This document shows positions 2,062 to 51,571 of a stretch of DNA of 64,000 nt, piece by piece. The notes below the pieces were generated by a model that saw only the letters and a program-made list of their open reading frames with translations, was not told the DNA's origin and ran no database searches. The position numbers were made by a program, and so were the translations under genes. Every line of letters starts with the position of its first letter. Positions within the stretch are counted from its first letter, which is position 1. This DNA comes from Ignavibacteria bacterium (GTDB lineage Bacteria > Bacteroidota > Ignavibacteria > Tepidaquicellales > OLB5): contig JAIOIK010000138.1 in NCBI GenBank assembly GCA_019912545.1, forward strand, positions 1 through 64,000, read 5' to 3'.

Positions 2062-3438
2062 CTAAATCTTATCAAATTTAGCGGTAAAGTGCCTCAGGAA
2101 TTCAGGCTCTTCAACAATCTTCAGGCCTTTAACTTTTTCTTTCCCTGTTAAGAGTAACTCAAATACTTCAATTACATATTCAATGTGGCTTTGAGTGTAA
2201 ACTCTGCGCGGTATTGCAAGCCTTACAAGTTCATTTGGTGCGGGGATAAGTTTGCCATCTTCATCATACTTGCCGAACATAACTGAGCCTATTTCAACCG
2301 AGCGGATGCCGCCCTTTGTATATAACTCGCATACCATAGCCTGCCCGGGGTATTCTTCCACCGGTATGTGCGGGTAAAAAGCTTTCGCATCTATATATAC
2401 AGCATGCCCGCCAATGGGATAAATAAGCGGCACACCCATTTTATATAATTTCTCGCCAAGGTATGCTGTGCTGCGTATTCTGTATTTCAGGTAGTCCGGT
2501 TCAAACACTTCCTGGAGTCCGACTGCAATAGCTTCCATGCTTCTGCCCGAGAGTCCCCCGTATGTTGCAAACCCTTCCGTGATTATCAGCAGATTTGTGC
2601 ATGCATCAGCAAGCGATTTATCTTTCACTGCGAGGAATCCGCCCATATTTACAAGTCCGTCTTTTTTCGCGCTCATTACACAGCCGTCAGCAAGCGAAAA
2701 CATTTCCTGTGCAATTTGCTTATAGGTTTTGACTTCGTAGCCCTTTTCGCGGTGATTTACATAGTATGAATTTTCGGCGATACGGCAGCAATCCAAAAAG
2801 TATTTAACTTTGTATTTACTGCAAACATTTTTAACTTCTATTGCATTCTGCATGCTGACGGGCTGGCCTCCGCCACTGTTATTTGTTACTGTCAGGATCA
2901 CTCCTCCAATGTTTTCTGCGCCGTATTTAATAATATGCTCTTCAAGAGCTTTTATATCCATGTTGCCTTTAAACGGCCTGTCGAGCATCGGGTGTTTTGC
3001 TTCTTCAACGGGTATATCAAATGCTTCAGCTCCGGAAAATTCTATATTAGCCCTGGTTGTATCAAAATGCGTATTACTTAAGAATACTTTTCCTTTGCCT
3101 CCAAGGTAGCCGTACAAAATTCTTTCTGCAGCCCTGCCCTGGTGTGTTGGCAAAATGTACTCGTAACCTGTAAGATCTTTTATCACGGCTTCCATCTTGA
3201 GCCAGCTTCTGGAACCGGCATAAGCTTCATCGCCGTCCATCATTGCAGCCCATTGCTTTGAGCTCATGGCAGAGGTACCGCTATCGGTCAAAAGGTCTAT
3301 CAGCACGTGCTCGCTCTTAAGCATGAATGGATTAAAATGTGCAGATTTCAGATATCCAATTCGTTCTTCTTCGGTGGTAACACTTAAGGGTTCAATTTCT
3401 TTTATCTTAAAAGGTTCAATTATGGTTTTAAATGACAT
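2062..3438 (-). CDS. tnaA: Tryptophanase / beta-eliminating lyase (PLP)
   Basis: LLTDSGT, GDEAYAGSRS, PTHQGR, SAKKDGLVNMGG, IPRRVYTQSH, FLRHFTAKF; closer to tryptophanase than tyrosine phenol-lyase by motif comparison from memory. Confidence 0.82.
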   Translation of the reverse strand: MSFKTIIEPFKIKEIEPLSVTTEEERIGYLKSAHFNPFMLKSEHVLIDLLTDSGTSAMSSKQWAAMMDGDEAYAGSRSWLKMEAVIKDLTGYEYILPTHQGRAAERILYGYLGGKGKVFLSNTHFDTTRANIEFSGAEAFDIPVEEAKHPMLDRPFKGNMDIKALEEHIIKYGAENIGGVILTVTNNSGGGQPVSMQNAIEVKNVCSKYKVKYFLDCCRIAENSYYVNHREKGYEVKTYKQIAQEMFSLADGCVMSAKKDGLVNMGGFLAVKDKSLADACTNLLIITEGFATYGGLSGRSMEAIAVGLQEVFEPDYLKYRIRSTAYLGEKLYKMGVPLIYPIGGHAVYIDAKAFYPHIPVEEYPGQAMVCELYTKGGIRSVEIGSVMFGKYDEDGKLIPAPNELVRLAIPRRVYTQSHIEYVIEVFELLLTGKEKVKGLKIVEEPEFLRHFTAKFDKI

Positions 3439-3553
3439 ATTTTTAGCTTGAGTGCTTGTTTAATTATACAAAATTAGTCATAATAATTCCCTTAAATTAT
3501 GATATTTATCATGTAAGAATCTGCAAAAAATTACGGGAATTGATATATTCGGG

Positions 3554-36570: not shown

Positions 36571-36601
36571 GGACAGACAGTAATGCCTGTCCTGCTTTTT
36601 T
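36571..36601 (+). terminator. Terminator-like REP-related hairpin downstream of glgA
   Basis: GGACAGACAGTAATGCCTGTCC then GCTTTTTT. Confidence 0.65.
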
Positions 36602-49008: not shown

Positions 49009-49039
49009 TTGAACCTTCCCAAATCCCAGGGTATCTTTG
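49009..49039 (+). promoter_or_regulatory. Bacteroidetes-type promoter of der
   Basis: TTG (49009-49011)-N20-TATCTTTG (49032-49039), 6 nt before ATG at 49046. Confidence 0.55.
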
Positions 49040-49045
49040 TATATT

Positions 49046-50434
49046 ATGCCGCAAAGAATAGTTGCTATTATTGGAAGGCCGAATGTTGGCAAATCTTCAC
49101 TGTTTAACCGCCTTGTTGGTAAGAAGACGGCTATTGTCCATGATACGCCCGGAGTTACCCGTGACAGGAACTACGGCGAGACCGAATGGAACGGAAAGAA
49201 ATTCTTTTTGATAGATACCGGCGGGTATGTACCCAACAGCAAAGATAAGTTTGAAAGCGCGATACGTGAACAGGTAAGAATTTCAATTGATGAAGCAGAC
49301 GTAATATTGTTTGTAGTTGATGCGAAAACCGGAATAACCCCGCTTGACCTTGAAATAGCAAAGCTTTTAAGAAAAGAAGCAAACACTGAAGACAATATTC
49401 ACAAAAAGGTAATACTTGCAATAAACAAGGTTGATAGTAGGAATGATGAAGGTGTTGAACCGGATTTCTTCAGGCTTGGTTTGGGGGAACCGCTGGAAGT
49501 CTCAGCGCTTGTAGGTAGGCGCTCCGGAGACCTTTTGGATATGATCACTGATAATATCCCGGATGATGAAGCAGCCGGTACGGATGAGAATGGTATCAAG
49601 TTTGCGATAATCGGCAGGCCAAATGCCGGAAAGTCGTCTCTTGCAAACGCATTAACGCAATCAAACCGGAATATAGTGACTGATATACCGGGTACAACAC
49701 GCGATCCGATTGACTCTTTGGTCACTTATTATGGTCAAGAGATCACTCTCATAGATACTGCGGGTCTCCGCAAAAAAAGCAGGATAAAAAGAGCGGAAAG
49801 TTTAGAATATTTTTCGGCACTTAGGACACACAAGAGCATTGAAAGATGCGATGTTGCTATCATAGTTATTGATGCAACTTCATTTGTCAGCAAACTCTCC
49901 AAATTTACAAATGCCGAAGAAGCTGTATTCAAATTAGGAAAAGAAGATGTTGAAATAATAATTAAGGCTGCCGAGCTGAAAAAGGGAATACTTCTGGTTA
50001 TAAATAAGTGGGATCTTGTTGAAAAAGAAACCAATACTGCCAAAATATTCGAGAACAAAGTAAAAGAACATTTAAAGACATATGACTACCTTCCGTTTCT
50101 ATTTACCTCTGCAATTACAAAACAAAGAGTATCAAAGATCATAGAAAGAGCGCTTGATGTTTACAACGAAAGGGCGAAAGAGATCAAAACAAGCGAGTTA
50201 AATGATAAGCTATTGCCATATATTAAGGAATTCCCGCCTCGCTCGAAATCACATAAAGAGCTTAAGATAAACTACATTACCCAGTTACAACACTCACCCC
50301 CGGTAATTGGATTTTTCTGCAATCTGCCGAGTGAAATTGAAGTAAATTACAAAAGGTATCTTGAAAATAAGGTCAGGTTTGAGTTTGGCTTTACCGGGGT
50401 GCCGATAACATTGGCTTTTAAGAAGAAAAATTAA
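49046..50434 (+). CDS. der: GTPase Der (EngA), double G-domain
   Basis: IIGRPNVGKSSLFNRL...DTPGVTRDR; IIGRPNAGKSSLANAL...DIPGTTRDP; KH-like C-terminus. Confidence 0.95.
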   Translation: MPQRIVAIIGRPNVGKSSLFNRLVGKKTAIVHDTPGVTRDRNYGETEWNGKKFFLIDTGGYVPNSKDKFESAIREQVRISIDEADVILFVVDAKTGITPLDLEIAKLLRKEANTEDNIHKKVILAINKVDSRNDEGVEPDFFRLGLGEPLEVSALVGRRSGDLLDMITDNIPDDEAAGTDENGIKFAIIGRPNAGKSSLANALTQSNRNIVTDIPGTTRDPIDSLVTYYGQEITLIDTAGLRKKSRIKRAESLEYFSALRTHKSIERCDVAIIVIDATSFVSKLSKFTNAEEAVFKLGKEDVEIIIKAAELKKGILLVINKWDLVEKETNTAKIFENKVKEHLKTYDYLPFLFTSAITKQRVSKIIERALDVYNERAKEIKTSELNDKLLPYIKEFPPRSKSHKELKINYITQLQHSPPVIGFFCNLPSEIEVNYKRYLENKVRFEFGFTGVPITLAFKKKN

Positions 50435-50499: not shown

Positions 50500-50523
50500 G
50501 TGGCACAGACATTCCTGTCTGTG
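50500..50523 (+). repeat. REP-like unit GTGG + CACAGACA-TTCC-TGTCTGTG
   Basis: 8-bp perfect stem preceded by GTGG. Confidence 0.8.
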
Positions 50524-50540
50524 TATCACAACTTTGAAAT

Positions 50541-50986
50541 CTAAAACATATCTTCATTAAAGTACCACCCCACATAATCCCATGGATTCTCTGTAATTCC
50601 AGCCTTAACCGGATTATTAAACATATAGTTTAACTTCTCATTAAGTTCCTTATCGTCTCTAATGATACGATCAAAAGATTCATCTTGCCACAAGCTGCCC
50701 TTTGTACCACTAAGATCGTTAATGGTGTTTGCTGAAACACCTTAATGCCCTTCATTATTCATGATAACGTGTATTTTTCAACTGGCTGAAAGATAACATG
50801 AGCGTGATTATTCATTACAACAGCAGCATATAATAGATAGTACTTATCGTGGCCTTTTATAATATGTTCTTTTACAATCTTTATTTCTTCATCACTGAGC
50901 TTGCCACTCAACAATCTGAATGTAATAAAATAAACAGAGCCTTGTAATTCCCAGTGGGGAAGATTTCTTTTAGTGATTTTAAGCAA
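50541..50986 (-). pseudogene. REP-associated tyrosine transposase (RAYT, Y1_Tnp/IS200-like), degenerate
   Basis: N-half WELQGSVYFITFRL...VVMNNHAHVIFQPVEKYTLS*; downstream IMKGIK then frameshift to GVSANTINDLSGTKGSLWQDESFDRIIRDDKELNEKLNYMFNNPVKAGITENPWDYVGWYFNEDMF*. Confidence 0.88.
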
Positions 50987-51012
50987 TGGTATTGTTGTAT
51001 TTTTAAAGAAAC

Positions 51013-51036
51013 ACAGGCAAGAATGCCTGTGCTACT
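51013..51036 (-). repeat. REP-like unit, minus orientation: GTAG + CACAGGCA-TTCT-TGCCTGTG
   Basis: 8-bp perfect stem. Confidence 0.8.
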
Positions 51037-51055
51037 AAATTACTTTCTGTTAAAC

Positions 51056-51091
51056 GCACACAGACAAAAATACCTGCAGGTCTGCGCTACT
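51056..51091 (-). repeat. Diverged REP-like unit, minus orientation (GTAG + CGCAGACCTGCAGGTATTTTTGTCTGTG)
   Basis: GTAG tetranucleotide and partial stem conserved. Confidence 0.6.
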
Positions 51092-51100
51092 TAAATTTGT

Positions 51101-51571
51101 TTAATTTATCACAATTTCATCATTTAATTCATCATCATTGGCTGAATCTGCCCTCACAGGAAACTCATGCGAAAGTATCTCTCCCATCCTGTTGATCAGC
51201 GCAACAATTCCGGCTGCATAATTTTTCTCCCTGAATTCCTCTTTCAGCTTACTTTCTATTTCATTCCACACATCATCCGGAATTTTCTTATATATTCCCT
51301 CATCAGCAATTATATCAAAATACCTTTGCTCAAATATTAAGAATACCAGTATTCCGGTTCTTTCTTTTGTGCGGGCAACTCCAAGGGTATCAAAATCCTT
51401 CATGGCAAGCTCGTGATCTGAATACAGCCGCTCCAGCAATGTTTTTTTATTCCTGAAGCTGAGTAAAATCTCGCCAATGGTTTTTGATTCCACGTCATTA
51501 ACCGCTGAGCGAATATCCTTCAGATCATCTTCTGAGAAGTATTGCCGTATCCACTGTTTTTTACTGCTCAT
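51101..51571 (-). CDS. TPM-domain protein (YgcG-like)
   Basis: TKERTGILVFLIFEQRYFDIIADEGIYKKIP. Confidence 0.75.
   Translation of the reverse strand: MSSKKQWIRQYFSEDDLKDIRSAVNDVESKTIGEILLSFRNKKTLLERLYSDHELAMKDFDTLGVARTKERTGILVFLIFEQRYFDIIADEGIYKKIPDDVWNEIESKLKEEFREKNYAAGIVALINRMGEILSHEFPVRADSANDDELNDEIVIN

Follow-up and report, generated by a model that had tools for sequence, protein, structure and literature searches.

REP-associated tyrosine transposases (RAYTs) of the motif type considered here, together with GTRG-footed repetitive extragenic palindromes (REPs), have already been described in Bacteroidetes (PMC6006769). A 2013 survey lists GTAG REPs in Proteobacteria, Cyanobacteria, Chloroflexi, and PVC, and none in Chlorobi/Ignavibacteria or Bacteroidetes (PMC3733652). 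A different kind of mobile element also enters the present case: IS1272, an insertion sequence (IS) of the IS1182 family, is reported to target stem-loops, removing the target hairpin and leaving no target-site duplication, and a duplication of the loop alone has been drawn as a possible pathway, not documented (PMC5678879). Here, we analyzed a stretch of 64,000 nucleotides from an Ignavibacteria bacterium (GenBank assembly GCA_019912545.1, contig JAIOIK010000138.1, positions 1 to 64,000; the window), in which a broken RAYT gene lies between inverted GTRG hairpins. Very probably, this is a remnant RAYT-REP locus whose hairpins are cognate and whose enzyme is dead, and most REPs of this genome spread as passengers of an IS1182-type miniature inverted-repeat transposable element (MITE).

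The locus can be likened to RAYT/TnpA_REP subclass 2.4 (group 4) of the Y1 HUH superfamily, with which it shares GT[AG]G REP flanks, but here the gene is a pseudogene of about 148 aa, compared with the 194 listed (PMC6006769). As in the described GTAG REP families and REPINs (inverted REP pairs), the hairpins have a GTRG foot, an 8-bp stem with covarying positions, and a 4-nt loop, and they are intergenic and form inverted pairs about 46–50 bp apart; unlike in those families, most copies here lie inside a MITE (PMC3733652, PMC3116915). RAYT and REP are thus already known, and the REPIN-carrying IS1182 MITE is a variant for which we found no description: full-text literature searches of partial coverage returned no paper that places a REPIN within an IS1182 MITE.

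A RAYT pseudogene between inverted GTRG hairpins

Positions 50,541–50,986 of the minus strand are a pseudogene of the RAYT (TnpA_REP) family, identified by translation, a family profile, and alignment with homologues. Its N-terminal piece (50,759–50,986), which aligns with the homologues, reads LKITKRNLPHWELQGSVYF...MNNHAHVIF...KYTLS* in one minus-strand frame and contains the HUH motif NHAH. The C-terminal piece continues in a second frame as GVSANTIND...YMFNNPVKAGITENPWDYVGWYFNEDMF*, ends at 50,541, and carries a WQ and the tyrosine motif YMFNNP, in which the single catalytic tyrosine aligns with that of intact homologues and with YIYINP of the E. coli-type TnpA_REP structure 4er8. The reading frame is not open, as an in-frame TGA and a 1-nt frameshift split the gene. 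When read through with X at the stop, the translation matches the NCBIfam family for REP-associated tyrosine transposases, NF047646, at 86.3 bits (cut-off 80), and Pfam Y1_Tnp (PF01797). A profile of the homologue alignment also finds 4er8 in the PDB (E=3e-6); a PDB search with the RAYT as a single sequence gave no match.

The gene is flanked by inverted GTRG REPs with their tetranucleotides facing outward, as are its homologues. The 3' flank holds a REP with GTGG, an 8-bp stem, and a TTCC loop (50,500–50,523, plus strand), and the 5' flank one with GTAG, an 8-bp stem, and a TTCT loop (51,012–51,035, minus strand); both are predicted to form stable hairpins. A third, diverged outer copy at about 51,056–51,091 (minus strand) consists of GTAG CGCAGA, an inserted CCTGCAGG palindrome, and TATTTTTGTCTGTG, with the small palindromic insert placed ahead of the loop. 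An earlier note, made from the sequence alone, had described a RAYT broken by a TGA after KYTLS and by a 1-nt shift at GVSANTIND, with NHAHVIF and the C-terminal part remaining, a plus-strand GTGG hairpin on its left, and two minus-strand GTAG hairpins on its right. Translation, the two family matches, and the hairpin positions bear out each of these features, the outermost hairpin in modified form. Several REPs share the position of a palindromic insert just ahead of the loop (CCTGCAGG, CCTGCCTGCTGCAGGCAGG, and CCCGCC...GGGCAGG); besides 51,056–51,091 of the window, such copies are found at L021 (about 1,541–1,590), L063, L073, L074, L079, and L093.

We next consider the note's proposal that the hairpins are the substrates of this RAYT. 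The same hairpin flanks the homologues of three congeners, where they occupy this locus, and those of the sister genus (G001), where they lie elsewhere. Several distant RAYT homologues (36–43% identity; from WOR-3, a Bacteroidetes MAG (metagenome-assembled genome), Acidobacteriaceae, and Gemmataceae) also adjoin GTRG hairpins, mostly similar in sequence, for example CAGACACTCTTGTCTG, whereas the hairpins of the other RAYT-like genes in this genome (G000) are unrelated. Because the same or a similar hairpin accompanies near homologues and most of these distant ones, but not the other RAYT-like genes, these comparisons support the GTRG hairpins as cognate substrates of this RAYT. In addition, two stem positions covary among 49 free or flanking REPs of G000, G001, and G003 (Fisher 4.6e-11 for A-T/G-C and 3.8e-12 for C-G/G-C, values that are overstated because REP copies are related), and the GTRG foot plus palindrome is maintained by compensatory change. 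By analogy with E. coli TnpA_REP, an intact RAYT would bind single-stranded REP at its GTRG foot and stem, cleave it through the catalytic tyrosine, and transfer the piece to a new site.

The earlier note had suggested looking for an intact RAYT copy, but the assembly contains no other copy of this RAYT that is intact. The other RAYT-like genes were considered as such copies and rejected, as they are distant and have hairpins of their own. About ten of these further genes occur in G000 (C205, C174 with two genes, C5, C143, C63, C144, C167, and C76; loci L089, L094–L099, and L059). Most stand beside repeated hairpins of distinct sequence, several of them with a GTAG or GTGG foot, making this one genome rich in RAYT-REP families.

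Most REP copies lie in a MITE

Across the 3.66-Mb assembly, a MAG in 206 contigs, the pattern GTRGSACAGRCATTCYTGYCTGTS has 90 matches with at most three mismatches, compared with 0 for the reversed control, and a chance origin of the repeat is rejected on this count. The matches form 56 clusters, of which 18 are free (20 REPs) and 38 lie in the MITE (70 REPs in 39 copies, an upper figure, as some copies at contig ends may be one locus assembled twice). The genome-wide enrichment for which the earlier note had proposed a search is thus present, but with about 70 of the 90 copies inside the MITE it does not on its own show that the RAYT is active. The free REPs are mainly intergenic, 15 of 20 lying outside open reading frames (ORFs) when ORFs cover 85% of the sequence by the same crude rule. 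Free REPs are mostly singlets, with a recognisable partner arm at only about four sites; one free REP, slightly diverged (two mismatches), lies in the window at 36,572–36,595 (minus strand). With a dead RAYT, few free REPs (singlets for the most part), and the bulk of the family in the MITE, RAYT-driven spread of REPs seems to have ended in this genome.

The MITE is typically 119 bp long and consists of the terminal inverted repeat (TIR) GAGGCTGTCTCAAAA, a REP, a 25-bp spacer, an inverted REP, and TTTTGAGACAGCCTC. One copy occupies positions 1–119 of the window (plus strand; REPs at 19–42, plus, and 68–91, minus), which starts exactly at the MITE end, owing to a contig break at that point. The same holds at many other contig ends of G000, where the assembly is interrupted at a MITE or an IS1182 element. 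Some older copies have a longer left hairpin. The 11 distinct full-length versions have a mean identity of 95%, and the offset of the REPIN is constant in every 119-bp copy. The minority-base frequency is about 0.01 in the REP arms, at most 0.02 in the TIRs, and 0.09 in the spacer and right subterminal region, although this set was picked by TIR and REP-edge patterns and ascertainment may explain part of the low variation in REPs.

The MITE has no transposase gene, and 14 of its 15 TIR bases match the resident IS, which encodes an IS1182-family transposase (NF033551, 345 bits) and has the ends GAGTCTGTCTCAAAA. Both elements sit in hairpins such as CCCCGCTC-TTTA-GAGCGGGG, and around many MITE copies the 4-nt loop is duplicated (TTTA, TAAA, TTCA, TGAA, TACA, AGCA), the duplications lying outside the TIRs; insertion of the IS likewise duplicates the loop. 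At two places IS and MITE stand in tandem, parted by the same duplicated 4 bp. The MITE has thus inserted into the loops of other hairpins and duplicated them, and the shared ends, targets, and duplications suggest that the resident DDE transposase would most likely mobilise it in trans. This system resembles IS1272 in its IS1182-type DDE transposase (NF033551), terminal repeats, and hairpin targets, but here the hairpin is kept with duplication of its 4-nt loop, and nearly identical ends are found on a MITE that carries a REPIN (PMC5678879). These insertions show the loop-only duplication of target hairpins that has been drawn, and not documented, for the family (PMC5678879). A strict pattern for an unoccupied target hairpin with TAG...CTA flanks had no match in 15 genomes. 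The hairpins that serve as targets are themselves a repeat of a different kind, CCMCG...CGKGG, seen at MITE flanks and in the der-TPM gap of G014; a GGCTAAAGCC or GGGACTTTAGTCCC hairpin often lies nearby.

Free asymmetric REPINs with the same arm types (G-C with a TTCC loop, C-G with a TTCT loop) occur in G001, in which no TIRs of the MITE type were found, and MITE-like elements with related TIRs and no REPIN occur in G006, in G013, and elsewhere in G000. The likeliest origin of the MITE is therefore capture of a REPIN between IS1182-type ends. As G011 has one REPIN-bearing MITE, the capture probably precedes this species, with the largest expansion in this genome. We tentatively consider a further possibility, to which we give somewhat less than even weight: that a REP family with a dead RAYT was kept and multiplied by this capture, the REPIN being the payload of a MITE spread by a hairpin-loop-targeting DDE transposase. 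The REP arms vary far less than the spacer, which would fit selection acting on the hairpins for MITE mobility.

Inheritance and loss of the locus in relatives

The pseudogene is neighbored by der (EngA GTPase; 49,037–50,434, plus strand) and by a gene at 51,101–51,571 (minus strand) that is probably TPM-type by similarity. We compared this gap among relatives, leaving out G011 and G010 (no TPM match) and G005 (no der adjoining TPM). In G003, G006, and G013, it holds a RAYT with outward GTRG REPs (homologue identity 59–70%), so that the same gap is occupied in four species by a gene of low copy number at a fixed locus. The RAYT locus has thus been inherited vertically without leaving the interval that the TPM-type gene and der enclose. 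The sister genus G001 has three RAYT copies at other loci, one of them (G001:C10) with a broken frame.

At the same time, several species of the genus have lost the RAYT or carry an inactivated one. Sites without a RAYT hold one intact REP in G004, a partial REP in G014, and a degenerate REP in G007, and these three genomes group with the RAYT-bearing G013 in the species tree (100% support). G014 and G013 have in common the sequence leading into the 5' REP, which makes loss simpler than late arrival in G014. Neither RAYT nor REP is present in G008, the sister of G003 (99%). G003 retains an uninterrupted RAYT frame, in which arginine replaces the second HUH histidine (NTHTR, compared with NHAH or THVH elsewhere).

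Several observations weigh against a remnant locus with a dead enzyme and largely MITE-borne REPs. The intact RAYT homologues score 79.8, 79.0, and 69.8 bits against NF047646, below the cut-off of 80, and so form a borderline group. Given the fragmentation of the MAG, an assembly error in one lesion is possible: the 1-nt shift may be such an error, and an intact second RAYT copy could lie in a gap. Support at the deep nodes of the species tree is low (31–69%) and does not fix the number of losses, and we therefore claim only that loss recurred. Finally, REPs are fairly numerous in some species without a RAYT (24 copies in G004), and the data do not support a simple dependence of REP number on the presence of a RAYT.

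Among the alternatives, it is unlikely, though the best placed of those that follow, that the hairpins persist for host use, such as terminating transcription in both directions or stabilising 3' ends where the TPM-type gene and der converge, with the RAYT incidental. The position of the REPs between convergent genes and the exactly one intact REP kept by G004 after RAYT loss would suit such a role. However, in G008, G009, G012, G001, and G002 the same convergent pair is separated by only 2–43 bp with no such hairpin, which is therefore not needed there, and no T-run follows the hairpins. We find it more doubtful still that the RAYT is intact and active and that its stop and frameshift are assembly errors, even though the MAG is fragmented, one lesion is a single-base length change, and the pseudogene has diverged from the intact homologues no more than those have among themselves (66–70% identity). 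Two independent lesions of different types would both need to be errors, the gene is independently inactivated or lost in G003 (HUH), G001:C10 (broken frame), G004, G014, and G007, and free REPs are mostly singlets, as expected without RAYT activity. It is hardly credible that all REPs are RAYT products and that the TIR-flanked copies arose by repeated insertion of REPINs into IS1182-type MITEs already present. The REPIN-free elements would allow a single founding insertion, but the constant REPIN offset, the 95% identity, and the duplications outside the TIRs indicate that the whole composite moved as a unit, many times.

REP counts are commonly taken as a record of RAYT activity. By that measure the 90 REPs of this genome would point to a flourishing RAYT-REP system, but its RAYT is broken and a DDE-type MITE accounts for about 70 of them. 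The genus provides a natural series of RAYT states (intact, active-site mutant, pseudogene, deleted with a REP footprint, and fully absent), which suits the question of how long a REP population persists once its enzyme is gone, left open by a recent modelling paper (PMC8049555). A run of truncated and complete REPs lies upstream of the intact RAYT of G006 (L200, about 3,123–3,470), suggesting local tandem growth.
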